The notes under the pieces were generated by a model. The model was given only the letters and a program-made list of their open reading frames with translations, had not been told where the DNA came from and searched no databases. The position numbers and the translations under genes were made by a program. Positions 247-61,100 of a stretch of 64,000 nt of DNA are shown one piece after another. The DNA is from Owenia fusiformis. Lineage: Eukaryota > Annelida > Polychaeta > Sabellida > Oweniidae. How positions within the stretch are numbered: the first letter of the stretch is position 1; each line of letters starts with the position of its first letter. The stretch is taken from the NCBI GenBank assembly GCA_903813345.2, contig CAIIXF020000008.1, positions 9,947,278 to 10,011,277 on the forward strand. Direction: 5' to 3'.

Positions 247-1276
247 ATGAACGGAAGCCAGATTGATGACAAACTTGATATGACAACTGAAGTTCTCGCA
301 TCTACACTATCTGCAGAGAATAGTAGCACAGGTGTGACTGAAACATTCAGACTTTCACCTGTACTTCCAAGGAATTACCTTATAGCTCATGCTGTGTTTG
401 AATCCATAATTGCTGTTCTTATCGTTGGAGGGAATAGCATCGTGTTGATCAGTATTCTGATTCATAAGAACTTACATACTGTAAATAACATGTTTTTTAA
501 CCAGTCTGGCAGTTGCAGACCTTATTATGGGGTTATTTGTATCCCCGCTCACAATTGACCTCCTCTATGTGAAACCTCTCACTTTTGGTGAATACAAACA
601 TGACAAATGGACATGTATAATACGTTTGTATTTACATGTTATGTCAATAGGAGCATCTTTGTTGAGCATTTGTGGAATTGCCTTGGATCGTTACATTGCT
701 ATCATGCACCCTTTGAAATATAGAAGTATGTTAACCCATCGAAGAGTCATGGTTTATATCCTATGTATTTGGGTATATGTGATCTCACTCTCTGCATATT
801 TATTTTCAGAAGGCAACATTCAATTTAAAGCAAATGAAACTTGCCGTACAAAATATGTTATTTCACCACTTGTTTTCTCCATACTGAAAATTCATGTTTT
901 CGTTACTATATTTGTGAGTGTAATGTCACATACCATTGTTGCCATAGTAGCAGCAAAGCATAGAGCAAAGATCAACTCTGATTTGGTCAGGTTCAACAAT
1001 AACATGGCGGTTGCACATCGTAATGAAAATAAAATTGCTAAGATGATGATTCTTCTTGTTGGGTTGTTCTTGCTCTGCTGGCTACCACAAACAATTAACT
1101 CACTTATTAAAAGGGCAGATTCTCCTGATTGGGACAAATCTCTTAGTTATTATTTGGTCACTTTATCAGTTGCAAATAGTGCGATGAATCCCTTGATTTA
1201 TGGTATTTGGTTTAAAAAGATGCGAAAAGCCATGTTAAATGTTATACAGTGTTCAATGAAAAGTTCCATAGAGTAA
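247..1276 (+). pseudogene. Class A (rhodopsin-like) GPCR, intronless, one-base frameshift in TM2
   Basis: Seven-transmembrane receptor for an unknown extracellular ligand, expected at the plasma membrane. The frame from ATG 247 gives an N-tail with N-glycosylation sites (NGS, NSS) and TM1 with the GN motif. The frame from about 500 onward gives LAVADL in TM2 (D2.50), DRYIAI after TM3, a Cys in extracellular loop 2 (NETC), CWLP in TM6 and NPLIY in TM7, followed by a short basic tail and TAA. The two frames meet at a run of six T's near 492-497: 247-1276 is 1030 nt, one more than a multiple of three, so one extra T explains the break. With that base discounted the length (342 aa) is normal for the class. 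Position 3.32 counts to His, not the Asp of aminergic receptors, so the ligand class is open; the overall look is adenosine/amine-like orphan. It could be a recent pseudogene or a homopolymer error in the assembly. It lies on the opposite strand and downstream of the PNPT1 exons, possibly inside a PNPT1 intron. Confidence 0.85.
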
Positions 1277-4385: not shown

Positions 4386-7300
4386 CAGAAGATCCTTCAT
4401 GAGGGTGTAGTCAGTGATCTTGCCAGTGTCTGGATGTGTCCTGGTAACAACACCTATAGCTACACCTGCTACATGGTCACTTATAGGCACTCCTGCATCC
4501 ATCAATGCTAAGCTTCCAGCACATGCAGACGCCATACTTGACGATCCTTAGAATAAAAGGAATGCCTTTCGGTTCACCTTATTCTTTTACAATATCAGGA
4601 AAATGATAACTTAGGAAAAATCAACATTATGTGCTGACCTTACGAGGACTTGTCAATTTACAGGAACAAAAGGTAGGTATACTTTCATTCACCTAATTTT
4701 AAAGTAGCAGCATGGACTGACGAGTCGTATCCAGTGATCCTGGCCCTATTGTAAAATGAGAGCTTTGAGTGTGTTATAGCCTTTAATGATGTAGCTATTT
4801 TCCACGTATGCAACTAGAATTTGTGCACATACCTTATATCGATAGGTAATGGCAAAAGAAAATCCCCTAATTCTTTGTCTTTTTCATCTCTCAGCCATTT
4901 TTATTAAACTGGAAGTTTGTTCTCTAATGTCCGCGCAATATTTTTTCACTTTCATTTCAGATTACGCTTTGGATTCGACTTTTAATGCTTTCTAATAATC
5001 GTTAAGTGATTTCTATAAGAAACATTTTCATAAAAAAACTCACACTATCAGAGATTTTATCGACTCAAGCAGCCAGAAAAATTAGTTTCAATTTTACCTG
5101 CTAGGTGATTCGACGTCGACTTGGAAAGAATTTAAAAAATCTATGAGTGGGACTCCTTGTATAGAATTATAGATTCTAAATGATTTGTCAGTTTTACTGG
5201 TTGATGAATATTGCCATATGCATACATTTTTTAAAATAGGAATAAGAAAGAAGAAACTTCGCCCTGATAGCTCAGAAAAGGTAAAATTTAACCATTTTTC
5301 TCTTCACAGTCCTTGTAGCGGCTTTAAATATCAGAAAAAAATGCAGTTACTATTTCTTATTAAAAGGTAAAAAAATCAACATCAAGGTCACTTGCTGACT
5401 GTGCTTGACCTTTTATTAACCAAGTCTTAACTTAGGATAGTTTAAAAAGAAGTGAACCAACCATTGGATTCTAAGACCTCTGCTGTTAGCCTAATAGTGA
5501 ATGGGTAGTTGTCTGGTACCACAGGGCATAGGGCTTTCTCAGCAAGAGCACCTGGAATACAATATGTAATGTATTGCATACATCTAATAGAATGTGTACT
5601 GTGTTATTGACATCTTCTTACAATAAAGCACAGTAATCTGTCTGTCAATGGTAATATAAAAGAAAACAAAGGTTCAATTATTTACAAAATCGCTCCACTA
5701 CTTTTCAGGTTATAGTAAAATATGTAAAAATGATGGCTCTCGAGCATAACTTCTACTCCCATAGAGACTATGTGTACAAAATATGAACAAAATCGGGCCA
5801 ACGGTATTTGAGTTATCGCCCGGACAGACAGATGGACGGAGGTGTTCCCTATATCCCTCCGAACTTCGTTCGATGGGATAAGGAATTTTATGCATTTGTG
5901 ATGAACCTACTAATGATTATTGGTGTTAAAATTTTCATTAAATAAATTGAACTCACCATGTCCAAGCTCCCTTCTCCCAATACCTCCAGGCCTCCCAGTC
6001 TCATTGGTTGCATATGGAGGGAACTGCAACAAATACATTCAAATACTCATAATGTAAATGTACAATGCACTTATAACTCATATAATCTCATATGACAAGT
6101 TGCATTTTTTCATTCATAATATTATAATGCATCATTTTCATGCTTTATGATTATACAAGCACATAAAAGAAGAAAACATACTTCTTGAATATTATTCTGA
6201 AGTAAACATTTGTAAGACAGTACAGTACAATCTGTATATTCAAACATCTGGCTAGTCTAAACACTTTTCGGTCCCATCTTTGATCTCCCATTGACCCCCA
6301 TGTTATAAAACCCTTGAAACGTGAACACCTCCCAATTTGAACGGTGAACAGTCATATTAGAAAAATTAACGTGTCTAATCTGAACACTTTTCATAAAAAA
6401 ATCACTTATTTCATTCAAATTGCTCAAATATTGAAACACTGATTTGCTGAAACATTGAATTGTGAACATCTCGTAATCCAAATGCTTTAACATGGTCTCA
6501 ATATATACTCAATGTATACTATATGACAATTGTACTTTAACATATTGTTTCACTGCAAATAAGAATGTGCTGATAAATGTAATGAAGGACCCACGGTCCT
6601 GTGCTCACATAGTGTAGAACCTTCAGAGGAATGTATATCCTGATTTTCAAACAAAATTATTGATTTTGATTTGTAGTCTCGAACTTTGAGAAACTTAGAT
6701 AGCACAGTTTGTGACCTAGTTTGAGGACCTTTGACCTTGAACATTTTACTTATTCAGAGCTCAGTAGGTCTTTTGTGATTAAGCTGACCAAAATTTACAT
6801 CCAAATAATCAATTTGAAAAATCAACTTTTTTGACCTTTCGAAGGTCACTGAAGGTCAAATCTGAAAAATAAGGTCAGATTTGAACTCCTGGAGTCCGTT
6901 TTTGTACCGTTCGTAGTAACGAACGTTCGCAATTCGTAAATTCATAAATATTTAAAAAGTTACGAATGAGTTGCAAATTCATAAAGTTGCGAATGGATCA
7001 TTTTTGTACGCTTTCGTAAGTCATTCGTAACTTTCCAATTGTTTAGAGTAAGATTTACGAATTGGTTGACGTCATATTCCACAGTTGTCAGGACAGATAG
7101 TACAACAAACAGGGTTGATCAAAATAATAAAACCAAAGTCATACATTAAGAACTTTATAAAAAATAAAAATTCCATGAAAAGTACTAAAATAGATATAGA
7201 AATAGGTTGATAATACGTTGATAACGGTGTTGCCCTTTGTGTTCTCTGATCTAGAATGACAAAACGTCACAAATCACAATATAAATGAATAAATAAGAGG

Positions 7301-13300: not shown

Positions 13301-16300
13301 ACATCAGCTGAAAAACAACCTTTTTGTACCATATTGTACTGTACTCAGTGTACTATACTGTACTGCACTGTACTCTATTTTACTGTACAATGCTGAACTG
13401 CACTGCACAGTATTGAATTGTACTGTACAGTATTGAACTGTACTGTATAGTATTGAACTGTACTGTACAGTATTGAACTGTACTGTACAGTATTGTACTT
13501 AACTGAATTCTATGGTACAGTATTGTACTGTATGCAGTATGCACTAAACATTTAAATATATTTTACTTACATCATCGAATAACTTGTAGTACAGGGTGTC
13601 CAAAAAAACAAAACCTTAAGAAAGTTGAATAACTCGGTCAATTTTGCATATTTTGCCTTGAAATTTCAGAATTATTTAGTTCATTCAATGTGAATTTTGT
13701 TGTGAAAGTTTGATACTAATCTGCGGGTTGAGTCAAAATCTACAATTGCTTACAAAACATGCTCCAAATGTGCACTTCTCTCTATGCGCAATTCAATCAG
13801 GCGAACAAAGTTGTTGATGATCTTCCTCCACACATATCTTTCTGAATGGACAAGTTTGTTCCAAGATCAATTGAAACTGGGGCTTACATCCTCCTGATGA
13901 AATGTTACAGCATTCATTACATTCTGAACAATGCATTGCCTAGGTGGCAATGAGGAAACATGGAATCATCAGTCCTTTTTGGTTCGAAGATGACTGATGA
14001 CAAGGACCAGTAAGTTCTCGCTAAGTTTTGGAGGTCACTAAGCACCAGAAAGGACATCTAGGGAGAAAAGCAGTGGTTTCAACAAGCCAATACCACCCTA
14101 ACACTACAAATGATATGCTGAAAGGGTTTAGGCAATGCTTTGGTGGTCAGCTCATCAGTCGCAGAACACAAACCATACGGGCAGCTCATCCGCCAGATCT
14201 AAATCCCCCGGATTTTTATCTTTGGGGATTTCTCAAAGCAAATCTGTATATGTATAGGTTAGTGTATAGGTTAGGGGCATTAACAACTTGGTTCACAGTA
14301 TTCGTTTGTGTATAGAGAAGTGCCCACTTTGAGCTTGTTTTGTAAAGTACTGTAATTTTTGACACAATTGACAGATTATCATGAAACTTACAGAACAAAA
14401 TTCACATTGAATGAACTAAATATAATAATTCTAAAATTTCAAGGCAAAATATGCAAAATTGACCGTATTATTCAACTTTCTTACGGTCCTGTTTATTTTT
14501 GGACACCCTGTATTAACAGAATATGACTAAAATGTATACCTGAGTCTCACACAAATAACCCTCTGGGAACAAAGGTCGCACTGATCTATCTGTAAAAAAA
14601 TAAGTATTGAAATTTACATCAATGTGTAAAAACATATATGTATAAAGACTAATTCTTGCTGGGTGCATTCAATTTTACTATCCCTGCAATATCATGTACT
14701 GTAACAATCTGGGGAGTTTTTATTCTTTGCTACACTACACTACACACTGATCTAAAAATAATATACAAGGTGATCAATAAGTAAGGCAAAGGTAATTAAA
14801 TTCATGCTTGAATTGATCCTTCACAATAATAATGTTTGAGCTGACCTATCACACGACTGGTGAGGATTTCTTGTGGTGTAGGGCCAAGTTCCCGTCTTAA
14901 GTAATTTGTGGGTATCCTACCATAAGCTGCGGCTTTCTGTCTGTAATCTACCTATATCAAGTGAATATTACATTAGGGGATGTTTTGGATATCAGGTATA
15001 GCTCAAAGGGTGTAGATTAAATTCATTGAGGGTTAAAGGTTGTATCCGATTTTTTAAAAAAATCAAAATTTTGTTTGATTTTGATGATATTTCCAAAACG
15101 TCATCAAATTTGCATACACAATAAACCCAAGAAATATGAATTATTTCATTCAGATATTGGTACATGTAATGCAAATCCTGTGTATATGGGACACACAATT
15201 GTTAATTGTAGACAAATGTTTCAAATAGAGAAAGTTCAATTACATGAGTCAATTGGTTCTTTTCACAACTGTACTATAGAGATTGCTGATAACATCATAA
15301 AGAGTGTCATAATGGTGATTGAACTGTGGGGGTTGTACTTACTGTGAGAGGCAGGAATCCAGCAGTGCTTGGCTTAGATTTACCTACTGCTGTAACCATA
15401 ACTGATGTTTCTCCATCCTAAAGACAGTGAAATAAAACATACGACTTAAAGCCACTTCTCCAGGACATATAAAGACCGCAATTTAAAGCCTCAACACATA
15501 AATGCCACCTGGTATGAAGTTGGAAATATTAACTGCTTATGTTGTTTCATGAGAAAGCTCATGGTTGTTTCAATAAACTAAATATATAATATGCTGCTTC
15601 AAAGATGTTGTTTCCAATTAATGATTTGACCTAGTAGGAGTTAAAATGTTACTAAAGGTTTTTGTTCTCAAATCAGAGTGGCATCTAGTATAATGAAGAA
15701 ATGTACGCACCTTAAAGCTTGTTTTCAAAATATGACTTCTGAATACATGTAATTCTATGAATGATGTCATAGACACATGAGCAGCCTTTACCAGTTAGAT
15801 TTCATTCACCCTTGAACTATTATGATACTTTAGAAAATGATATGTTTACCTCAACAACTGCACACCCATCTGCAAATCTGGCAAGTTTACCGCAACTTAT
15901 CTTGATAGCTCTGAAGCAAAATCATTTCATAAAACAATTACAGAATTCCATGTTCAACAGTTCTGATTATGAATCCTGAATCAGAAATAAAGCCTGACAT
16001 TGACTTAACATGGCTAAACGCAATATTATCAATAACGGAGTGGCTCCAGGACCGACAATTGTCGGTACTGGAGACTGTCCAGGGGTATTTGCTAGGGTAC
16101 CGACAATTGTCAGCACTCTATCATCACCTAGTAGTGCCAGATAGAGAACCGACAATAGTCGGTACGCAAGTGGCTACTACGTGTTTTTGCTAGAGAGCCG
16201 ACAATTTCATAAATATTACTAGATAACGGCAACTCCGCGGAGTAGCAAATCCCAACGAACAAAATATCAATTACCGAATTCCAATCAATTATACTCATTA

Positions 16301-19300
16301 CTTTGGTTAAAATTGAAAAATTTAGATTTTAGAATTGCGAATTCCTGCAAAGCAGCCATTTTGAATTTTGTGAGGTACAAATCTGAAAAATAATACCATA
16401 ATTGTGATCTACTCCAAAATTCCTTCAATTTGAGTATTATATAGCCATACTTTGAAGGGATCGAAAAATTATTGCGAAATCGTACATTAGACAGCCATTT
16501 TGAATTTTACGAGGCTCGAATCAGAAAAAAGATACAATATTTGCAATCTACTCTTAATTGCCTTTCATTTGAGTATAATAAAGCTATACTTAAGAAAGAT
16601 CTAAAAATTAGCGAAAATTTCTGTTTTCCTAACCCCCCATACATGGCCCCTGGGGGTCAGGATGAAAAATACGGAATATATGTGAAATAGATAGATGTTG
16701 CAAATATACTACCAAAATGTCAAACAATAATAATTACTTTGGTTTAGAATTAAAAATTTATGATTTTTGCGAAAAAGTCCCATCATTTTTAAAGCGGCGG
16801 CCATCTTGAAAAATTCCATTTTGAATTTTCTGAGGTACAAATCTGAAAAATAATACCATAATTGTGATCTACTCCAAAATTCCTTCAATTTGAGTATTAT
16901 ATAGCCATACTTTGAAGGGATCGAATAATTATTGCGAAATTGTACATTAGACGGCCATTTTGAATTTTACGAGGCTCGAATCAGAAAAAAGATACAATAT
17001 TTGCAATCTACTCTTAATTGCCTTTCATTTGAGTATAATAAAGCTATACTTCAGAAAGATCTAAAAATTAGCGAAAATTTCTGTTTTCCTGACCCCCCAT
17101 AAACGGCCCCTGGGGGTCAGGATGAAAAACACGGAATATATGTGAAATAGGTAGATGTTGCGAATATGCTACCAAAATTTAAAACAATAATATTAATTAC
17201 TTTGGTTTAGAATGAAAAATTTATGATTTTTACAAAAAAGTCCCGTCATTTTTAAAGCGGCGGCCATCTTGAAAAAATTTTTTTTTGCGTAAAACTATTC
17301 ATCAATAAACATCTTTCCATCAAATATGAAGAAAATCCGTCAACTAATATTTGAGTTATCTTCCGGACGGACGGACTGACTGACTGACTGACGGACTGAC
17401 AGACTGACGGACTGACGGACTGACGGACGGAGGGCTTCACTATATCCCTACCGAACTTCGTTCGTTGGGATAATAAATCGACTACTTTTACTTTTACAAA
17501 TAACCTCATCACTGGTAGCCTCGTGGTTAGCGAGCACGACTCGAACACACTCGGTCCCGAGTTCGGATCCCGGCAGGACCTACATTTTTCTTTTGAGGGG
17601 GGGGCATAGTGCTTCTTTTGCAGTATGGAATCGCACAGGCATTAACTTGTAGTGAGCCATAATTTATTTCGACAAAAATTGATTCAACTTCCATCAAAAT
17701 TGTCCTACAAGCTTCAATTAAAACACATTTTAAAGCTCTTTTCTTGTTCTATCTATGGGTCGATATATACAGTTAGGGGAGAGGATGCTTTCGCCCCCGT
17801 CGCTCTCTACCCTTACTATGCCATGGCACAGGAGAAATATCTCATTTGGAATATATCACTGTTTACTTTGCGTTTGGTAGCTCTCTCATGCGAGATGGAA
17901 TCGTGGCCATTAACTAAGGGAGCCAAATGCAACTTCCATCAAAAATTGTGCTATAAGGTATGAGTACCGTAATCCAACACCAAATTCGAAAATTCATAAC
18001 AATACTTTGCACATATGGCGTTCGTGACCAACTATGAAACGCTTACCCCCCATAATGTTATATATCAAAATGCACCTGTCCATATAGGGGTTCGATTGAC
18101 CTACATCAAATTATAGGGAGTCAGGTTACTTTTTGAGATATCAGCGTCCGTTTATTGTAACTCGCGTTTGCTACCACTTCCTCAATTCTGATATGACGGG
18201 CAAACGCGTAGTAAACATGCTCACGTTCGGAACTATTTTGACCTACATCGCTATTTTCGTAATTCAAATGAAAGTTGAACTCCTCTTTATTTTGATACCA
18301 AATAGTGGCATACTAGGTACCCTAGAAGCCAACTATGGGTTATTTAGAACGATACCACAGGTTTTTAAATGGACTATATAGGGCGGATGGATATGGAACC
18401 TCATACCATAAGCTTCAAATAAAAAACATTCTAGCTATTTTCTTCTATCTAATGGGTAGCAAACGCCCGTTTCTACGCCTGATCGGCTCAGGAGAAATAT
18501 CCTGTCTGTTTAGAATATATATAGCCGTTTACTCTGCATTAATAGCTTTCTAACATCTTACTTGTTCATGTTTTTTATTGGGTTTTCAACGTTTACTACC
18601 ATTCCCTGTTCTCGGGCTACCATTTTTTGACTGGGTTTGGTAATCCCCGGGTAACCGGGGCTAATGCCCTCCCCGGGTTTTGCACTTGTTCCCAAAATAT
18701 CCGTATGATATCTGAAATATCCCCCCGCGCATTGCGCATGCGCCAGAAGATTCGAAAATCAATATTTGTCGGTCCCCTAGCGTGTAAACACAGCATATCT
18801 CCCGTACCGACAATTTATTTGTCGGTCCTCTAGCGTGCCACCACATCAGAGTCTAAAGTACCGACAATTGTCGGTACTCTAGCCTTTACATATCAATAAA
18901 CACTGGCTAAACTGGAAATTGCTTTTATTCAATATAAATCACACATCAACGTGATATTATATTCCACGTTTACACATTTCTTGCATCTTTATCTAAAATT
19001 AAACATTACTAAGTGGGATTTGGACGATTCGGATTCGATGATTGGGATTCGGAAGAATGGGATTCAGAGCTTTGTGATTTGGACATATTTGGATTTGGAC
19101 CAATGTGATACGGACAATTGGAATTCAGACCAATGTGATTTGGACCTTGACCATTGCATCTGGATTCGGACCATTGGACCATTGACCAATGGGGCGACCC
19201 CTTTCAAAATCTATCAACAATAACTGTATTCATGGTAAAGGGCTTTAATTTTGCTTGCATTCATGATTCAAAAGGAATATTATATTTGACATAAAAACAT

Positions 19301-19505
19301 GATCATGAAATTGAAAGAAAAGAAACTGAAAAAATTACTTTGAGTTTGAAGAAGGTATTTCCACTTCAGACACGTTTCCTCCACCATCCCATGGATTTTT
19401 ATGCATCTGCCTTCGACTGAGGTATCTTAACTTGTTTTTGTTACAAGTATCAAGGACGCTGATGCACCTCGAGCACAGAAATCGTCCAAATATTACTGGA
19501 AACAT
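4386..19505 (-). CDS. PNPT1: Polyribonucleotide nucleotidyltransferase 1, mitochondrial (PNPase), 5' 17 exons, 3'-incomplete
   Basis: Phosphorolytic 3'-5' exoribonuclease of mitochondria. Coding exons (minus strand, 5' to 3'): 19505-19339, 15910-15850, 15417-15343, 14951-14846, 14589-14540, 13307-13196, 12914-12801, 12552-12363, 11644-11593, 11346-11289, 10967-10871, 9030-8928, 8585-8527, 8196-8160, 6023-5957, 5551-5462, 4546-4386. All junctions are GT-AG and in phase; the sum is 1599 nt = 533 codons. Exon 1 gives an Arg/Cys-rich, acid-poor N-terminus, a plausible mitochondrial targeting peptide, then the first RNase PH domain ([54 protein letters not shown]), the helical linker (~290-360) and the second RNase PH domain ([47 protein letters not shown]). 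The family is about 780 aa; the exon with the catalytic GDMDFK-type aspartates, the KH and the S1 domains are not in the window. It shares a 57-bp start region with TTC13. Confidence 0.96.
4547..5461. other. PNPT1 intron 16, no extra features
   Basis: This is the intron between exons 16 and 17 on the minus strand. Apart from AT-rich sequence I see no RNA gene or clear transposon. Confidence 0.6.
5740..5895 (-). repeat. Terminal fragment of the 1.2-kb 'ccgaacgaagttcg' repeat family
   Basis: Read on the minus strand it begins with a tatccca(t)cgaacgaagttcg-type terminus, then a ccgtcc-rich tract and 'gataactcaaat'. The same order occurs at the end of the element at 16219-17472 and at the start of 42655-43882. 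It lies in PNPT1 intron 15. Confidence 0.7.
6225..6545. repeat. Degenerate 'acagtaaaacctgt'-type MITE-like repeat
   Basis: Pieces such as 'acagtacaatctgtatattcaaac', 'gaaacgtgaacacctccc' and 'gtaatccaaatgctttaac' recur at 4260-4350 and 22376-22755, which end in the inverted form 'acaggttttactgta'. Termini of the CAGTAAAACC type are known from pogo/Tigger-like elements; that assignment here is an inference. Confidence 0.5.
6896..7492. mobile_element. MITE with perfect 34-bp terminal inverted repeats (597 bp)
   Basis: Positions 6896-6929 (starting ccgtttttgtaccgttcgta) are exactly inverted at 7459-7492. The interior is full of the inverted motifs ttcgtaa and ttacgaa, mostly near both ends, so the whole element can fold back. 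There is no coding capacity. It sits in PNPT1 intron 14. No obvious target duplication was identified. Confidence 0.87.
7563..8140. repeat. Direct repeat pair within a dispersed repeat ending in a 'gctcac..gtgagc' hairpin
   Basis: A block of about 135 bp starting 'gactttttgacgtcaaaa' at 7569 recurs at 7913, sharing 'tctcggaaaccgggcgaact' and 'gcataaaatgaatgtg'. The second copy runs into a (ggac)n-rich tract and then 'aggctcactgtgtgagccaa', a terminal hairpin also seen at 10729-10745 and (degenerate) at 9331-9342. Confidence 0.75.
9088..9259. repeat. Recent 90-bp tandem duplication
   Basis: About 82 bp beginning 'tttcttcttgtccccacaat' at 9088 recur, apparently without mismatch, at 9178, separated by 'acaacat'-type bases. 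The identity implies a recent duplication. It is in PNPT1 intron 11. Confidence 0.88.
9320..10745. repeat. Tandem array of ~315-340-bp units (4+ copies)
   Basis: Each unit contains 'gacagatggacaaatcaatg', 'aaaatggctgaaaataaaaa', 'aacaaaattatttcatacaa' and 'aatttcgcgagacaaaaatg'. Unit starts fall near 9428, 9742, 10081 and 10418; the last copy is rearranged. The array ends with the hairpin 'gctcaccatgtgagc'. Two copies keep similar 66-67-codon open frames (9432-9632 and 9748-9951), but other copies do not and nothing supports translation. Confidence 0.85.
12003..12050. repeat. 'gtcaccac..gtggtgaca' hairpin repeat fragment
   Basis: The stretch 'gtcaccactttttcgtggtgaca' is a perfect short hairpin. 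Related sequences occur at 37346-37612, 39033-39062 and 62502-62532, so it is a dispersed family in this genome. Here it lies in PNPT1 intron 8. Confidence 0.6.
13321..13535. repeat. Low-complexity 'tgtactgtacagtattgaac' tandem tract
   Basis: About ten imperfect 20-bp units built on 'gtactgtacagtattgaact' directly follow (on the plus strand) PNPT1 exon 6, within intron 5. The unit is itself partly palindromic (gtactgtacagtac). Confidence 0.85.
13592..14510 (+). mobile_element. Tc1/mariner element relic with 'cagggtgtccaaaaa' ends
   Basis: The ends 'cagggtgtccaaaaaaaca' and 'ttatttttggacaccctg' are inverted and flanked by TA at 13590-13591 and 14511-14512. Subterminal inverted similarity continues for about 140 bp (gttgaataactcggtcaatt versus the right end). 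The plus frame around 14028-14260 keeps the transposase C-terminus ([28 protein letters not shown]), while the block that should carry the preceding catalytic Asp (FQQDGA-type) is mutated. It is dead, 919 bp long, in PNPT1 intron 5. Confidence 0.87.
14763..14786. repeat. Solo mariner end, partial
   Basis: 'aaggtgatcaataagtaa' matches the outer end of the mariner at 1725-2816. No partner end was found nearby, so this is a fragment or chance match. Confidence 0.35.
16043..16210. repeat. Cluster of 'ccgacaattgtcggtac' palindromes (left cluster)
   Basis: Four variants of accgacaattgtcggtac lie near 16050, 16099, 16149 and 16198, separated by about 50 bp with shared spacer words such as 'ctagg' and 'ccagg'. 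A matching cluster is found at 18764-18885. The two clusters flank 2.6 kb of repeats inside PNPT1 intron 1. Confidence 0.8.
16219..17472 (-). mobile_element. Full-length copy of an unnamed ~1.2-kb non-coding repeat family
   Basis: Read on the minus strand it starts 'ttatcccaacgaacgaagtt' (17472), passes through a (gtcc)n tract and 'gataactcaaatattagttg', carries several 'caaaatggccgcc'-like words, and ends 'gggatttgctactccgcgga gttgccgttatctag' (16219). The copy at 42655-43882 on the plus strand has the same two ends and the same order. Neither has a coding frame. This copy contains an internal 460-bp tandem duplication. The two termini share 'aacgaac/gttcgttggga' in inverted form. Confidence 0.75.
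16355..17280. repeat. 460-bp tandem duplication inside the repeat element
   Basis: The block with 'gaggtacaaatctgaaaaat' at 16372 recurs at 16832 (offset 460), and downstream words such as 'cccctgggggtcaggatg' and 'aaagcggcggccatcttgaa' recur at matching offsets. Divergence is only a few percent. Confidence 0.88.
17515..17590 (+). repeat. tRNA-derived SINE-like head
   Basis: The sequence has an A-box-like 'tagcctcgtggttagcg' and, about 33 bp on, a B-box-like 'gagttcggatcccggc', as in Pol III promoters of tRNA-derived SINEs. It does not fold as an intact tRNA and has no anticodon arm I can defend, so it is not called a tRNA gene. A poly-G tract follows at 17597-17606. Confidence 0.5.
18760..18885. 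repeat. Cluster of 'ccgacaattgtcggtac' palindromes (right cluster)
   Basis: Contains 'tttgtcggtcccctagcgtg', 'taccgacaatttatttgtcg' and 'taccgacaattgtcggtact'. It mirrors the cluster at 16043-16210, and together they may be subterminal repeats of one composite insertion in PNPT1 intron 1. Confidence 0.75.
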
Positions 19506-19562
19506 GTTTACAAACCGGAAGTAAATAATTTCTAACCAGTGTCAGCTTTTGGCGAAACTTTT
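19506..19562. promoter_or_regulatory. 57-bp bidirectional PNPT1/TTC13 start region with ETS/GABP site
   Basis: The PNPT1 ATG (19505, minus) and TTC13 ATG (19563, plus) face away from each other with 57 bp between. At 19514-19522 the gap contains accggaagt, the consensus of ETS factors such as GABP/NRF-2, which are known activators of mitochondrial genes and of head-to-head promoters. No TATA box is seen. Unless both 5' UTRs are under about 50 nt, the two transcripts must overlap at their 5' ends. Confidence 0.75.
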
Positions 19563-22500
19563 ATGATGTGGAACTTGAAAAAGTTCATTGTTTTGCTTTT
19601 ATTTGCTAATCTCTGCCATTCTGATGAAACCTGTGACATTGCAAGTGTACATGTCACTAATGAAGATGGAAGTCAACACACTTTTAGCATGAAACAACTC
19701 ACAAATCCAGAGAAACATTGTACAACATGTGGCACCCAAATTTCAACAGATCCATTTTCTGTTGGGTTGATGCCTTCTATAGCAGCAGACATGGGTATGC
19801 CCAATATTCCGTGTGGTAAGTTAGATTTGTATTACAAAGTTGCATTATATTACACAGGTTTTCTATATCTTCTATCATAAAGTCACTCTCATTGAAATGG
19901 GAGCTAGACCAAACTTTATCCTATTCATAGGCCCCGGGAACAAATATAAAATAGCGAGTCGACATCTGTATTACTACTGAAGAAGTAGTAATACAGATTT
20001 TGACTCGCTATTTTATACATGTTCCCGGGGCCTATGATCCTATTATTATTTGTTGATGTTCATGCCAAAATGGATAGCAGTCATAGATGCTGGCCAGATC
20101 CTTTTGTAGTAGTATCAGTAGCTCAATAAATTTTCTTCAAGATGAGACACCAAATTAGAAAATTTTAAGATGTTCCTAAGACTACAAAGTTGTATGTGCT
20201 TACTTGTGTCTCTGGCAATAACTTTGCTAGACACGGGGCTAGACATCATCACACTCGGCCCGCCATGTATAAACAATTTGATTCAGAAATATTTTAAATT
20301 TTGAATATTATTTTATATTGTTATTTGAATGAGGTATGCAGGGCTTGCATTAACGGCGTCCCGTACATGTTAAGGACTCAAAAATAATTTGGAGGACACA
20401 AAAATTGAAAATATTTCCGTTTTTTGGACTCAAAATTTTATTTAGGTCAATACTACAATGTGTTTACAACGATACCTAACAAAAACAAATAATTATGATC
20501 TCTCACCTTTATTTGAATCGTAAATAAGGCTCAACATGTTGAATATTTACAAATAATCATGATTCTCTCGAATTTTTTTGACTTTGTTTATTTTTAGATT
20601 TGAAACCATGACACGCCACAGTTTTTCCTATTCAGAAACAAATATTAGGTTATTCATGAAATAAAATGTATTCATTGTCGAATGCACGAACATGCATTTA
20701 TTCAGTCCGTACTTAATGTTTACTTCCGTTTTAAATTCGCGGCAAGAAATCAAAAACTGAAAAATAAGGGATAAACTTTTTTTTCAAAGGACACACCTTT
20801 TTAGAAAAATTGCGTCCTTGGGACTCACAAATTTTCTAACCTAATGCAAGCGCTGGGTATGATAAGTCTTATATATTTCTTTATTGGATGCACAATTGCC
20901 ATTTTAGAATTTGTAATTTTATTTGGTGTTTCATTTTGAGGAATTATTGTTGAGCTGCCGACACCTCTATTTAACGATCTGGCCTGAATCTTTGGAAGTG
21001 GTAGCTATTTGCCTGATAATTTCCTACATTATAACATTACCAATAGTATTCTGTATGAGGGATGTGAAAATTGTCCCCTATCGGCAAAAGTTAAGGTTCA
21101 CCTACATATGAGTTACGAGGAGTTCATATCTGATCTTGAATATAAGATTTGACCTTCGAAAGGTCAAATTTTCAAATTGTTTATTTAGATAAGAATTGAG
21201 GTCATATGGATCAAAAAAGACCTAAAGCTGTAGGGAAAGGTAAAATTTTGAAAGTCAAAGGCATCAAACTAAGTCATACCATCACAATAGCTATTATCTC
21301 TAAGTTTCTCTAAAGTTTGGGACTAAAATTTTGAGAATACAGATGTCTGTCCTTAGATTTGAGACTTGACCTTTCACTGACTTTTGCTTTTGAAATGCCA
21401 GAAATTTTTTTAAAATCAATGAATTCAATATTATGTCAAACAGATGACCAAGGACCTAAAATGTCAGATTTTGAGTTTAAAAGGTCAGGGTCATTGACCC
21501 AGTGATCTTCAATATGTATGTAGTTGAGTAGGATTCCTCTTTCTTACAAACTGAAAATTTGAGAATTTACTTGCAGAAAAAGATGGAGATGACCTCTGCA
21601 AACTATGTCAAGGTGACCAAGAGAATAATCCTGAATGTGAAGCTAATGAAGACTTGTTAAAGGTAAAAATGGTGAAAATATTTTCAGGAGGTTACACCCA
21701 ACTTATCTTTATTCTCAATAGACTTTCAAAATCTAATGAAAAGATTGATTCCACCCTTTGACAGTCTCTATCCCTTCTACTTCCTTTAACATTATTCATT
21801 AAGCAATTCTATTGTAGGCTGCAGCTCAGTCTTTGATAGATAAAGGACATATAGTGATAGCATCAGGGGACGAAGAAGTAGATGACAAAATTGGTAAGGC
21901 TCTTTACATTACAAGTTAATTATGTGGATTTGTTAAATAAAATAAAAGACAACAAAACATGTCTAATATTTTTTTCTTTAAATAAAAATTCAAAAAAATA
22001 TGTTTCATTGGTTTGGAAATTACTAAATATTTTATCCATTTTGAAAATAACAATAGAAAATCTAGTATTTAAACATTTTTTGATTCTCATAAAAGGCTAT
22101 TTTGTTCCAAGTTTCCTCAGTGCCCGGGCCTCAGTGTTCAATTTCTCAATTGCCCTCTTGGTTATTTAAAATATTACAATATTGAACTGAGTAACAATTT
22201 TGTTGTTATGTGCTCAATTTTATTATTACTTGAGAGGTTGCATCAAAAGAACAATGAACATCAACAATGAATTAATTTTATTTTGACTTAATTCCCCTAT
22301 TCTTTCTTAGGTAGTTTAATTATCTTTGAAAATTATGTTACCAATCCACTTATATCGACTTAAATATTATAATACACAGTAAAACCTGTATATCTGAATT
22401 CCTCTCTAATCTAAACAGTGAACACCTCTCAAAATGATTGCCATGGGCGTAGCGCTATTTTTCTAAGTAGTACGCCACCACCACAGGAACAAGAGTTGAG

Positions 22501-28500: not shown

Positions 28501-31500
28501 ACTATCAAGAACATGAACACACTCGAAATTATACTATAAGTTTATATATTAATTTCAGAAATATACAGAACAGCCAGGGATTCAACCAAATATAGAGTGA
28601 GTGGTTAATTTCAACAAGAATTATTTGATCTCTAAAATTATGTTATACTTTTTTGAATATGTTTAGGGTATATCTGCTTATGCATGAATTAATCATATTA
28701 TTCTTTTAACTTATAGCTAACAAATGTATTAAGACCTTGAACATTAATTTGGACTACATTGTCAAAGTTAATTCACAAATTAACCTCTCCTTCTACCATT
28801 TCCCTTTCAGAGATGTGTCACTTCCAGAATTTAGTGAATATGAAAGTGATGTTCAAGGTTTAATATGTCGGGCAGAAAAGATCGGCAAACTATCTCAGAT
28901 TAACGCTGATGGGTACAGTGTTAATAAAAGGTTGAATTTAGCAATTGGTCTTGCAGCGATCCATACTGCTCAGTCAATGGAGGTAATTATGAGATAATCG
29001 CAGATTTGTTTTAAAAGATTTTGAATTAAAACAAGGAGAGAGCACAAAGTGCAAAACGAGTCAAACATTTAATAATCTATTGGCTCAAACCATACATTTC
29101 ATATGATTATACAGATATGAAAAACATATTTTGAGATGAATTATTGTGCATGATTGATAAAGAAATTTGATTCTAAATATTTCAGGCCATTTTTAGAGGG
29201 GGCACAAGTAAACACATTAAACCAGATCAGAGATACCACTGGCGTGACCTCTACAATATAGCAGTGCCCTATAGGAGACTTTATGACATGGAAAACCCTG
29301 TCTTTTGGCTTGATCTCATGCCTGAGGAGAGACAGAGGGAAGGCTACAACTCAGATCTCAATTTTATCAGGTATATCAAGATGAATGAATTTACAAAAGT
29401 TCAGCCTCATATTCACTCTTTAAGTCAGAGACACTTCTTTGATCATAGCTGGCATCTATTCGTGTATAATCAATTCATTTTGCCAATGATTGCCAAAGAT
29501 TTATATGAGATTGTCAAGATTGTAAAATCATCTGATTATTTGCAGGAAAATGTTGCTACCCCATTCTGATACTCTTAGCATCTTTTTGTTTACTTGAAAC
29601 ATGCTCTGATATTATGAGGCATATTCTGCGATCTGAGCACATCAGATGGGAAGAGTTAAAACTATCAATAAGTGTGATTGTTGTCATGCAATCATCATGC
29701 CCGTAGCCAGGATTTGCTAAGGAGGGGTTCAATTTTCAAAAATTTCCAGGGGGGGTTCACATTTGACAATTTTGGCCCAAATATGGCTAAAATCACTTGA
29801 GAAGTGCTCAAAATAGTGAAAAACTGCATGATTTTGAAAGAATTTTTTGGCCAGGGCCCGAACCCTGCGAACCCCCATGGCTACGGGCCTGGGTGAATAG
29901 TGTATAAAAGGTTACTTTAATTTAGAAATTTTGTGAATATTGCACGGGGGAGGAATATAAAGTTACCATATGCATAGTATCTCTCTATTTTTATGATCAC
30001 CCCTCGTATCTTTTCAGATGATTATTCTTTCGTTTCCCCTTTTCTTATGCTTACTCGGGATGCTTACTATGAGACGTGTTTGCATACTTTAATATTGTTT
30101 GAATTAATTTAAATGAATACATTATCTCAATACATTTAGACGTTAAGTAGATCTTCATTGCCCTCTTATATCCACTTACTTATTTATTTTTTTTTACTAT
30201 ATCGCCCAGTCCTGCTTCAAACTCATGATGTAGCTCTATACCAAGTCAATAACGATTATAGCATTTGTGGCCTTGGCTACTTATTCAAAATCAAAATCAG
30301 ATACTATAAGTTTATTGAAACATTTTCAGTACATTTTTGAATTGTAAATGTTGTATAGTGCAGTTCACTATAATAAAATTCCCGATGGTTTTATCAATTA
30401 ACTTACAAGTAACTCGTCGTGTTGTATGTGAATAGTTCCATCTCATGACTTCGAATTAAGGTATACAACAGTTTTATCACCAAATTCATTATGAAATTTA
30501 TTGAAATCAGAATAACCTCTGGGAATATCCAAACTTTGTGGAATATGTATAATTCTTCCCCCAATTGATTCGCTTTTTGTCAGTGGTACTATCTGCCGCA
30601 CGCAGTCCAGAGCAGTGATTATGGTGGGTTTTTAAAATTGAACATGGGTTCAGTACAGTCTTGTTTAACCTTTTAGCAACTACATGCATAAACAAATTTT
30701 CGGCCCCTAGTCTATTTATAGGGGACGTCAAAAAATGTAAGCTCCATTTGTCGAAAGGTGCATCCATGTAAAAAATATGGACGTCATGGGAGCCCATATA
30801 TTTCTGCCTGCAAAAGTTTGGGTTTGATGGACATTTGGTGAATAAGGACGAGTGTCTAGTTAAAGAATAAGCGACCCGGCGTTCGACTAAGAATCTATCT
30901 TTAATCCTGTTGAATCCATCCCTGAGTGATATATCAGCGTTCATTATAGCAATATTCTTAAACATCAGATTTTCATTTGCATACTGGGCATAATCCCTAT
31001 AGGTGGGGAAGTTTGACAGTTTGTAAAAACGAACCATGGTTTCAACCTCCGACACAAGGAAATATTTTGTATCCAATGTTTTAATGTATCCCTCAACGTT
31101 CATGTTTTCCACGAGCAGATGGATCCTTTCCACACAGGGATGTTTTATATTAGAGGAGAGCGATTGGACGAATTCCATTTGGCGATTTTGAAAATGTTTT
31201 AAAGAAATGTTAGCAAATCCATGAGATTTTATTTCGCGCATAGATTGCAATACGGGGAATGTGGTAATAATGTTCAGCATGGCATCACAAGTCTCATCTC
31301 AAACTATCCTTTTAGCTTTAATTATTGCCGAGATGTCCTTACTCTGCTGTATTACATCTTTAATCCCTGTGCTCTTTAGCAATTGCCAAAGAAATACAAG
31401 GTTAACAGATGCGATCACTATTAAAACCAAAATAAATTGATTTGGTCTCATTGTCCACATTTCGATAAGTCTCAAATTCAAATTATAAGTGTATTTTGGT

Positions 31501-34500
31501 TCACTAATTACAGTAACTGTAACTTCATGAACATCCGTCTTATTCGTAGTTTGCTGAGTCTTCAAATGTCACCATCGGTTTATTGGGTCTATTGGAGCTA
31601 CCCTTGATAAATCGTCATTCCCAATTCATGCTTTAGAGTTCATTCAAAGATATGTCAAATTCTGACACATGCTATTTTCCCAAATCTTTTAGATGAATTT
31701 TGAAAAGAATCCAAATCAAAAGAATTTTATCCCATACTTGGACGTGTTACAGGTACATAAAGCCGGTTTGTAAAAACTTATATTTTCATCAGCGGGCAGA
31801 TATAGCTTTACGTCCCGCTCCGAGCGGGCAGATATAGTATATCTGCCCGCTACGTCATAATCGCCGCTCGTATATTTGTTCATAATTTGTAACGTTCGCG
31901 TAATGACTGTAAACGACAGTGGAGAAAACACAGACAATCGGGATCTGTTTGATGGTTTAAAAAAGGGAAGGAGCATCCACTTAAAAAATTCGAGAAAATA
32001 GATGTGGAAATATTTGAGAGAACAGAAAAATCCGCCCACGGCCAAGAAAACAAAACTGGACATGAATATTCTAATATATTTCCACGATTGAACAATGTGA
32101 ACCAGATGACCAAGATTGGTATGGGATAAACACATTATCCTATAGTCGGTTCAGGATATTGGGATTATCCCTTGGTCAATATAATATATTTTCCCTCGGG
32201 ACCTGCGGCCCTCGGGCAAATATATTATATTGGCCTCGGGGTAATCCCAATATCCTGAACCTCATATAGGATAATCTCTATTTATTTGATATTTCATTTT
32301 GTAATACATCATGAACTTACAGTTATTTACTGAAAACTAGTATATTCAAAAGCAAATGTTTTTGAAGAATGTAATACTTATTAAATCATGGCGCACAATA
32401 AAAGTCGTAATGGCTGCACGAATACTCTCAATTGGTACTGACGATAGAAGTGACAGATGACAAGTAGTATTGTATTACATATGGAATGAAACATTCTATC
32501 ACCGTTCCGCTGTTTTTATCATTAATGACGAGAATCATGAACGTTTTGAGAAATGAAAACATGTTAGATGAACTTGTGAATCATTATAAACTTTGATTTG
32601 TTTTTGAGAAATTAACGTTTTATTATCTTATTCAAGAATGCTGCCAAATCCTTTTTAGACACACGATTTGAAATTTGTGGTAGGCTAATCCTCTGTCTTT
32701 CTGGCAAATACACTCCACTCCAAAAGTTTGGCAACCTAAGCTCCCTGCCTCCTCTTTATATTTGAAATTTTATTTACATAACCTGCGGGGAAAATACTTA
32801 TAATATTGATTAAAATGTGACTTGATTTCATTTCCAAATGCCTCCTAATTTTTCGAATTTTTTTTACTTCTTTTGTTGAATTTTTTAATCCGTTGGTGAT
32901 TATCAGTGGATCAGTTTTTCCTTTAACTGTGAAAATGTAATACTCATTCGAAATAATAAATCTAGACTTATTTGATATAATCCTCCTTACACCTTTGTTT
33001 TCCTCAGCAAAAGATGACTGCATCTGGCCTTTTTATTGGACAGAACTTTCCACTGCACGTAATGTGTGTACCTTTTACACTTGTATCTAGTACCACAGGC
33101 ATACTCACCTAATTGCCTCCCTTAATCCATTTATTTGCTTTAAACATATTATAATTAATGACATAAACGTGATCCACTGAAGTTTGATATTCTTCAAAAT
33201 AGAGTACATACTAAATACACTGAAACAGCAACAATTTAATCTTAAAATGATATCCGAGATGAACGTGCATGCTTTTAATAATAACTCATTTCAAAATGTT
33301 TCTATTATTTAATATTTGCTTTTGAGGACTTGTCAGCCCCGGGGACTTAGCAAGAATTTTTTTGTTTGAAATAAAACAAAATGGAGGGGCACAGATTTGA
33401 AAGAAAATGTGTTTTCATCAGTATTAAGACAGTTGGTTTATTTCACTGTAGATGGAGCAGCTTTTAAGTTGGAAAATAAGTTGTGTGAAACTATTGATAT
33501 TTTTTCTTTGCATAATGTCATGATGCTCTGGGGTCTTCCCAAAATTAAACAATCACACCCCGTGCCTGAGGTTGCCAATCTTTTGGAGAGAAGTGTAAAT
33601 TTACTATTTTTATCTACTTGTCATATAAATTGAATATAAGTTATTGGTTATTGCAATGAATTTTCCACAAATATTTTTTTGGGGGAAATGCCAACTGGGG
33701 GTTCGTCCGAACCCATCGAACCCCCGGTCCCTACGGCTATGATCATTTACCTTATGTCAATACATTACATAATAGGCATTGTAATAAAGAGGAGATATTA
33801 GCACCGGCACAGATACACAAGTTTTATGACCCCAATTAGATGAAATATGAGCTGGGATAAAAGATCTCAAACATCCTCAATTTTGGGCTCTCCTGGATCG
33901 CCAAATCAAGCTCATTATATCATGGCATCTCAGGGCTGAGAAGAAATGAGATGTCATGGTTCATCATGATGTTGCTGCCCCATGAGATTCAATTAGCTGA
34001 ATGTCATCATTATTATTTTCTGGTAGACTGCATCTTTAAGCATTTACTTTTGTTTCATTGTCTTAGTTGGCTACTTTCTGTTGAAACTAAAGTTATAACT
34101 TAATCATGTTTGATGTATCCCTGTCTGGAATTGCTTTTACCTTCCATGTATGTAGAAATAAAAACTTCAATACATGACATGACAGTACACTAGATATGAA
34201 ATTTATATTTTGCTTTTTTAGGGGCCAGACTAAGAATCTCAGGTTGAGGTCTTACTTCAACCTTGTGTTTAGTCTCATTCAAACCATGATACAGCGCAAT
34301 CAAGATAATACTGCATTCTCTGCTAAATTCAAAGACCAAATAAGGAAAGCCAAAACTTGCGAAGACATTCTACAGATCTCAAAGGTATGGAAGCAAACGA
34401 TCATTTTAAAAAAATTGATTTGATATAGCTTAGATACAAAAAATACATGTTTTTGTTTTTGAATATACAGCTCAAAACATGGATGTAACATTTAGAAGGT

Positions 34501-45905: not shown

Positions 45906-46630
45906 AGATGGTCAAACAGTATTATTAAACTATACCATTATGATGGTCAAATAGTATTATTAAACTATGCCATTATGATGGTCAAACAGTATTCTTAAAC
46001 TATGCCATTATGATGGTCAAATAGTATTATTAAACTATGCCATTATGATGGTCAAATAGTATTATTAAACTATGCCATTATGATGGTCAAACAGTATTCT
46101 TAAACTATGCCATTATGATGGTCAAATAGTATTATTAAACTATACCATTATGATGGTCAAATAGTATTCTTAAACTATGCCATTATGATGGTCAAATAGT
46201 ATTATTAAACTATACCATTATGATGGTCAAACAGTATTCTTAAATTATGCCATTATGATGGTCAAATAGTATTATTAAACTATACCATTATGATGGTCAA
46301 ACAGTATTCTTAAACTATGCCATTATGATGGTCAAATAGTATTATTAAACTATACCATTATGATGGTCAAACAGTATTCTTAAACTATGCCATTATGATG
46401 GTCAAATAGTATTACATGTATTAAACTATGCCATTATGATGGTCAAATAGTATTATTAAACTATGCCATTATGATGGTCAAATAGTATTATTAAACTATA
46501 CCATTATGATGGTCAAATAGTATTATTAAACTATGCCATTATGATGGTCAAATAGTATTATTAAACTATACCATTATGATGGTCAAATAGTATTATTAAA
46601 CTATGCCATTATGATGGTCAAATAGTATTA
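45906..46630. repeat. 35-bp minisatellite, ~21 units
   Basis: The unit is 'gatggtcaaa(t/c)agtatt(a/c)ttaaactat(a/g)ccattat'. Unit starts run from 45907 to 46613 with constant 35-bp spacing and one 6-bp insertion (near 46412). Three variable sites co-vary in the middle of the array, giving a 70-bp dimeric higher-order unit. It is not CRISPR: there are no spacers, and this is an animal genome. Confidence 0.96.
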
Positions 46631-58100: not shown

Positions 58101-61100
58101 ATGTCTTCCTAAATGACGCCATATGTGTATACATAAACTATATACTCTAATTAATTATTTAATGTGCCATGGAATAGGCCTTTTTTAAAAATAGGCCCAA
58201 ATTAAATTGAATACAGAAAGGATTGTCAACATTTTTGTCCCCATTGTGAATTTGAAGATCTGACTCTGAAATAGGTTAACTAAGGGATGTCTTAACTTGT
58301 CATTTGTTGCGTGAATGTTGTTGAACTGATGATGATCATGTGATAAAAAATGATGATCACATGATAAGAAATGATGATCATGTGCCAATAAGAAAGTCCC
58401 TGTATGATACAAAACTGGCAATAATAAATAAAAAAGAAAGTCATTTTAGTGCATCTATCTATTAGAATCAAATTATCACCTTATAAGTTGGATTATTTCC
58501 ACAGAGTCAGTCTGTTTATGGAAACAAAAACATATCTTTTTGTAATATCTGTTATTGTTTTGAATCAGGATTACTCATATTTATGAAAAGGCGGAAATTT
58601 TGTTGACAATATTATCATAATAAACATTATGACATAGGGTTTTCCTAGAGATATATCATGAACCATTAATCAAAATATACCACATCTACTTCTTACTTAT
58701 CTTCAACTCTGACATCATAATTCATTCAGAATAAATTCCATATCCAATCACACACTTCTCATAACTTGAATTAATTACTCAGATGCGAGTAGGTAGTTAC
58801 CAGTTTCGCCACCAGCTGGCTGATTCGGAGGAATTAACATGGCAGGGTATTACAAAATTCCCTTAAACTTGAATATGCATCAGTTTTAGTGGTTCACTTT
58901 TCGTATTACCCTTATGTATCTGATAGTTATACAAATTAAAATATGTCCAGTAAAAGAAAATATTATCTGCCCAACACAAGAAAAGGTATTTCACTTTTTG
59001 TGGTTTTACAACATGGGGTCTATGGGAAATCTCCCCGACCTAGAAGTAACATTTCAAAGAAAATTAAATTTCAAAGTTGATAAACTCTTTTCAAAACCAC
59101 ATTTTTAAATGTAATTTTACATGTAGATTCCAAATATGACATCAGTTTGACTGATTTTTTGTGAGTTTTTAATGATGTAAATCAAGATTATTTCTACTCG
59201 CATCTGGAATATTGACCAAGAAGATAATAATTTTACCAATGGTATTTCCTAAATTGAAATTATCAATATTTACAACATCTGTAGGTTGTGTATCAATAAA
59301 AATACTAAGTCATTAATTTACATGTTAACAAGATGTTTGAACTAGTTTGAAGAGACACATATAAATATGACACTATGTAGTACTTTATCATCCACTTAGA
59401 TATGACATCTATTAAACGTCTGTTTTAGATCACTTACACACTTATAAATCCCAAATTGCATTTGTCAAATTGTCACCTAAATCTAAAGACTATGGGTGGT
59501 TTTTATGGGTTCACTTGAAGGTTTATCTAAGAAACCTTATCAGACTTCCATGTTGACAATTATGGGGTGATTCATTTAAAGGGTTTTGATTTCCCTACAG
59601 GGTGACTCATATGTGGGAACACCATTGATAATTTTTGAAATAAGAATTTTTTTTAAAATAAGGATTAGTGTTCCTTGTAATATTCTATTATCATCAATAT
59701 TCCACCATACAGTTTTATGTCCCAGAACTATTAATGCATTATTCCAAAAACATTTTATTATCTAATTAATCTGAATTTTGTGGGATTTTGATCAAGTTTA
59801 TACTTTCACTTGTGATTTCTCTCTTATTCTTATTTGCTATGAATATTAATGATTTTTTTGATTTTTCATGAGTCACCCATTGTACTTTTTATTTAAAACT
59901 ACCATAATCACTTTGCTAATATTTCTCAGCTTTATCACTTGTTTTACAGGGCTTTCTTACGTCATTGTGAAATCATGTATTGCCATTTGTGTTTTCCAAT
60001 TTGATCCTACTGCTTGCCCATTGCTATAGCCATGCCAAGTAACAATGCAGATGTTCTACAAGTTGTCAGCCCCTCAGCCATGATCAATGTTGATCACATG
60101 ATCCTTGTGTTGATATGATGATTTCACAGACCCCAATGCCACCAACCAGCAGGCAATACATCAACTGTCACAAGTGTTAATAGTGGAACTAAGTGTTGAC
60201 AAATTGCCATGGTGATCTGTTGTTTCTCACAATGATGTTGCTTTGGTAATCACCACAGAACTCTGCGTTAGATTTCAACAGAAAGTGTTTGTGATAATGA
60301 ATAAACATAGAGATGTCTCATTTAGTTTTTGGAGTTTTGTTTACTTTGGTTGTCTTTAGTTTGGGTACAAATACACTGTGTGATTGCTGTTCAGGAGTCA
60401 TCAGTTCTGTCCTTCAGAAGACAATAGGCATTTTAGACTTCTCCATTACAGACAATTTCAACCTTGGTTTTCTTATAGGAGTCACTGCTGAACATTATTT
60501 CTTGCATTTAAATGGAATGGTCCAGCCACATAAAATTGTATACAAAACTTTTATCTCATTATTTTATCACTTTACATTTTTTGGTGTGAAACTATTTTAA
60601 TATGTTTGTAAAAGTGTCATTAGCGACTCCCCCAGTCAATTTTTTTCATTGATATCCCGTTCAATACAATATAAACATACTCAGTTTCTTTATTGTCAAA
60701 CTTTGTGAAAGATAAAACAGAAAAACATTACAGTTTTGCAAACAAATATTTTGAGAGTTTTTACAAAATAAACAAACAGTGAATTAAAGGTTGTTAATTT
60801 TGATATATGAGCACCACTCTATTCAGTAAATAAAATGGGTTGTACAATTATGTTTGAAGCCTGTACAGAGGTCAGAGTTACAGTCCAATGTAGCATAGGA
60901 ATCTAAAGATGTGGTCTCCTGGTCCATTGGGAGTTTTTATCACCAAAAAAAACATAAAATGTCAAATCCATTTCCTTTCTTGTTGGTGGTCTGCCTTAAA
61001 GGAGAAGCCCTTGCCAATAACATTAGGGACTTTATCAAATTACTTAATAATCTTGCTTGTTTGAACATTGGAAAACATCTTCCAAATGGTTTATATACCA

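Follow-up and report, generated by a model that had tools for sequence, protein, structure and literature searches.

A 57-bp interval between the divergent start codons of PNPT1 and TTC13 as a putative shared bidirectional promoter

PNPT1 and TTC13 gene models

The window, namely the 64-kb stretch of DNA that was analyzed (C8:9947278-10011277), belongs to a genome of 498 Mb with GT-AG introns and animal genes, and it carries PNPT1 on the minus strand and TTC13 on the plus strand. Human PNPT1 and TTC13 protein sequences were used as tblastn leads, and a colinear series of exons was found for each gene:

4386 to 4547, minus strand: PNPT1 internal exon of the second RNase PH region, final PNPT1 exon identified in the window
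15850 to 15910, minus strand: PNPT1 coding exon 2, spliced to exon 1 in frame at 15910
19339 to 19505, minus strand: PNPT1 coding exon 1, donor AAA/GTAATT, in-frame junction with exon 2
19563 to 19815, plus strand: TTC13 coding exon 1, apparent signal peptide MMWNLKKFIVLLLFANLCHS, donor GTG/GTAAGT
21577 to 21662, plus strand: TTC13 coding exon 2, acceptor TTACTTGCAG, donor AAG/GTAAAA
23241 to 37262, plus strand: the other TTC13 exons that could be recognised, covering the TPR region and the conserved C-terminal region

The remaining PNPT1 exons were located outside the window (G000:C8 9919136-9924298); a gene truncated in the window was rejected, since these C-terminal exons were found past an intron of about 27 kb. 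The spliced exons matched the solved human PNPT1 chains (E about 1e-76) and the RNase_PH Pfam domains, which bears out the name proposed in the first-pass annotation, and the gene is apparently present as a single copy. Judged by eye, the basic N-terminus of PNPT1 resembles a mitochondrial presequence. Within the ∼27-kb intron, an open frame of the Rhodopsin-family GPCR type lies antisense to PNPT1 (485-1276, plus strand; PF00001, E 5e-37) and is predicted to be a nested gene or a gene fragment. PNPT1 intron 1 holds 139-bp repeats (16353-16610 and 16816-17070), near which a CGGA-rich simple repeat was found (17364-17431).

The TTC13-like identity proposed for the plus-strand gene agreed with TPR Pfam matches and with conserved C-terminal exons reaching 63% identity to the human query; the name TTC13 is putative and derives from that query, of which the TPR content is independent. 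The gene was found at a single place in the genome and is apparently single copy. Exon 1 opens with MMWNLKKFIVLLLFANLCHS, by eye an apparent signal peptide, which fits a start codon at 19563, and the human TTC13 protein has been described as ER-localised (PMC10783571). A 263-aa open frame (30507-31298, minus strand), for which no Pfam match was obtained, lies inside the 4.85-kb TTC13 intron (29371-34221).

Geometry and composition of the inter-ATG interval

The A of the minus-strand PNPT1 ATG is at 19505 (CAT on the plus strand, 19503-19505) and the plus-strand TTC13 ATG is at 19563, followed by a second in-frame ATG at 19566. The divergent start codons are separated by 57 bp (19506-19562), and both positions and the spacing, as annotated before, were confirmed by re-reading the letters. 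The two protein-coding genes thus form a divergent pair, head to head on opposite strands with ATGs less than 1 kb apart. The following features were identified in the gap:

19506 to 19562, no strand: putative shared bidirectional core promoter, the 57-bp inter-ATG interval, GC 0.35, two CpG
19514 to 19522, plus strand: ACCGGAAGT, ETS/GABP consensus, reading ACTTCCGGT in the PNPT1 direction
19518 to 19524, minus strand: TTACTTC, YYANWYY initiator match overlapping the ETS site, a pattern match only
19526 to 19545, plus strand: TAATTTCTAACCAGTGTCAG, weak acceptor-like stretch, score 2.2, which would leave room for a non-coding TTC13 exon upstream
19548 to 19557, plus strand: TTTGGCGAAA, E2F-like site absent from the first-pass annotation, sole copy in the window

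In-frame stops were found 30 nt upstream of the TTC13 ATG (TAA) and 39 nt upstream of the PNPT1 ATG, and neither leader contains an additional ATG within the gap. TATAWA was absent from both strands of the 57 bp, and the lack of a TATA box is usual for bidirectional promoters, not required. No CpG island was found over the gap region (19501-19750: GC 0.36, CpG o/e 0.25); such an island is typical of human bidirectional promoters and is not part of their definition.

If the TTACTTC initiator were used, PNPT1 +1 would be A19522 and the leader would be 17 nt long, and YYANWYY is a common pattern, with 1.7 matches expected per 57 bp. Another minus-strand match, YYANWYY/BBCABW-like, was found at 19569 inside TTC13 exon 1. 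This initiator would suit PNPT1 if the 5' leaders overlapped, with each start site lying within the first exon of the other gene, the mRNA 5' ends complementary and the promoters facing each other across the gap. Ordinary leaders of more than 57 nt would make overlap unavoidable, and divergent 5' ends overlap in about 2.5% of human genes (PMC10887517); however, initiator matches are very common, and the position of the ETS site is at least as compatible with a start site in the gap. Overlapping leaders are put forward tentatively, and they are not fully exclusive of a common promoter, both readings amounting to a shared promoter region.

The ETS-type site

The first-pass annotation had reported an ETS consensus in the gap, which was found at 19514-19522, and had placed the end of its core 9 bp from the PNPT1 ATG; its closeness held, and the distance was corrected to 8 nt from the edge of the 9-mer and 11 nt from the GGAA core (19517-19520). 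ACCGGAAGT lies near the putative start sites. With both strands counted, CCGGAAGT occurs as a single copy in the 64-kb window, and its expected number per 57 bp is about 0.0009 (empirical) or 0.0001-0.0003 (order-1 Markov model); these chance figures are local, and the motif was picked after the fact among many possible ones. The looser E2F pattern TTTSSCG occurs 16 times in the window, and E2F motifs too are among those reported to be enriched in bidirectional promoters (PMC10887517).

In human, bidirectional promoters show a strong association with GABP, and an CCGGAAGTG site can confer bidirectional activity (reviewed in PMC10887517). Given this tie and a GABP-alpha encoded in this genome (PF11620 matches on C10, E 1e-10), use of the gap site by GABP or another ETS factor is plausible. 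Human GABPA motifs are concentrated a few bases or less from start sites (PMC5117513).

Genome-wide, ACTTCCGGT lying 30 nt or less from an ATG was counted 7,295 times, versus 1,283 for the reversed pattern. This excess is largely due to an abundant repeat carrying the motif, and the count was rejected as an enrichment test because of the confounding repeat with ACTTCCGGTTCGGAAGTTATG. The abundant repeat contains ACTTCCGGTTCGGAAGTTATGGCG, and many of its copies include the ETS-like consensus (G000 C1, e.g. L004, L017, L024). At most 12-17 bp are common to the gap and the repeat loci examined, so an origin of the ETS site as a copy of the repeat was also rejected. The Ras and LSm gene starts were dropped as a promoter sample, since they offered too few dependable start codons.

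The match could nonetheless be incidental, with the promoter shared and the site not used. Copies of the 9-mer abound across the genome, general ETS use was not apparent in a small sample of other gene starts, and many motifs could have been chosen; on the other side, many of the genome copies are repeats, the match is improbable locally, and of the 12 ETS-ATG matches inspected away from the main repeat, at least two (L029, L012) stand at plausible gene starts. An unused site is quite possible, short of probable.

Splice acceptors and upstream non-coding exons

The previous annotation had also held that the gap must contain both core promoters or the leaders must overlap. Logically this stands, provided that neither gene has an upstream non-coding exon, and an acceptor model trained on the 29 introns of PNPT1 and TTC13 (held-out real acceptors, median 6.5) was applied to this proviso. 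No credible PNPT1-strand acceptor was found in the gap, where the best AG scored -3.3; a PNPT1-strand AG scoring 3.2 exists farther upstream, inside TTC13 exon 1. As the HSPD1 5'-UTR acceptor from the same genome, the positive control, scored 6.0, the model makes a hidden first exon unlikely for PNPT1.

For TTC13, an upstream non-coding exon appears weakly possible under the same model. Such an exon would be spliced just before the ATG, with the TTC13 promoter elsewhere and the gap serving mainly PNPT1. The two TTC13-strand AGs, at 19539 and 19545, are preceded by a modest stretch of pyrimidines and scored 0.9 and 2.2, a range into which real acceptors do fall (2/29 below 2), and HSPD1 appears to have a 5'-UTR intron of this kind. 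However, these scores belong to the bottom tail of real acceptors, a score of at least 2 is reached by 18% of all AGs in the window, and the exon would need to sit antisense within or beyond PNPT1 exon 1; a separate TTC13 promoter is improbable.

Comparison with known divergent pairs

The locus resembles the human GABP/ETS housekeeping bidirectional promoters (PMC10887517) in its two protein-coding genes, arranged head to head at a distance below 1 kb, in the lack of a TATA match, in CCGGAAGT near the putative start sites and in having a nuclear-encoded mitochondrial protein as one partner. It differs from them in a gap much shorter than usual that is CpG-poor (35% GC) and contains a single ETS site. 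In human, the two start sites of a bidirectional pair are mostly separated by more than 60 bp (PMC10887517), and the PNPT1 and TTC13 leaders would therefore be very short or overlapping. Most human bidirectional promoters have a CpG island (PMC2559893), and its absence here weakens the case for a shared promoter; the role of the ETS site is weakened by the description of the human PNPT1 promoter as SP1/NFY/ISRE-driven, in which an ETS site is not mentioned (PMC9570217).

HSPE1-HSPD1 is likewise a divergent pair with mitochondrial function, and its orientation is retained in this genome. Unlike the 57 bp between PNPT1 and TTC13, HSPD1 and the first recognised HSPE1 exon are about 8 kb apart, and a 5'-UTR intron seems to be present in HSPD1. 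No CGGAAG site was found in the HSPE1-HSPD1 stretch examined. The pair was dropped for calibration, as HSPE1 exon 1 was not placed and HSPD1 has the apparent 5'-UTR intron.

The mammalian TTC13-ARV1 pair is, we presume, head to head. TTC13 is listed beside ARV1 in cattle (PMC12090490), whereas its neighbour here is PNPT1 and ARV1 is 24.6 Mb away on the same chromosome; the neighbours of TTC13 thus differ between lineages. PNPT1 and TTC13 were not found named together in the literature searched.

A probable very short bidirectional promoter

The gene models, their geometry, the motif and the lack of a good PNPT1 acceptor in the gap are observed features of the locus. Together they suggest, with a probability of roughly 0.7, that the 57-bp interval is a very short bidirectional promoter common to the single-copy genes PNPT1 (minus strand) and TTC13 (plus strand). 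In each direction, transcription would most likely begin within these 57 bp or directly next to them, in DNA that is TATA-less and CpG-poor, and the leaders would measure roughly 15-60 nt. GABP or another ETS factor, bound at the ETS site, would bring in the initiation machinery for one or both directions. We infer the start-site positions, the binding factor and any coordination of expression; the weak TTC13 acceptor at 19546 counts against a shared promoter because it leaves room for an upstream exon. In a further reading, which is very unlikely, the 57 bp cannot accommodate two initiation complexes at once, and a single ETS-centred complex chooses direction, with PNPT1 and TTC13 transcription in competition; if true, this arrangement would link mitochondrial RNA decay with an ER TPR protein as a molecular either/or.

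Divergent gene pairs are well known, as are bidirectional promoters containing ETS sites, and the locus is a tidy, tight case of a common gene arrangement, in which nothing indicates a new mechanism. With single-copy genes, well-defined start codons, 57 bp, one ETS site and one E2F-like site, it offers a natural test case for how little DNA can serve two divergent RNA polymerase II start sites; apart from this value, PNPT1-TTC13 is a routine divergent pair. Start sites inside the gap would make both leaders very short, and start sites outside it would make the two mRNAs antisense at their 5' ends.

Tandem repeats elsewhere in the window

Two tandem arrays were found downstream of the recognised TTC13 exons: a 35-bp repeat at 45907-46630 (20.5 copies, 92% matches), and a GT-rich array with 28/56/84-bp units at 61442-61918, whose strands are strongly asymmetric (GC skew of 0.51 across 61001-62000).
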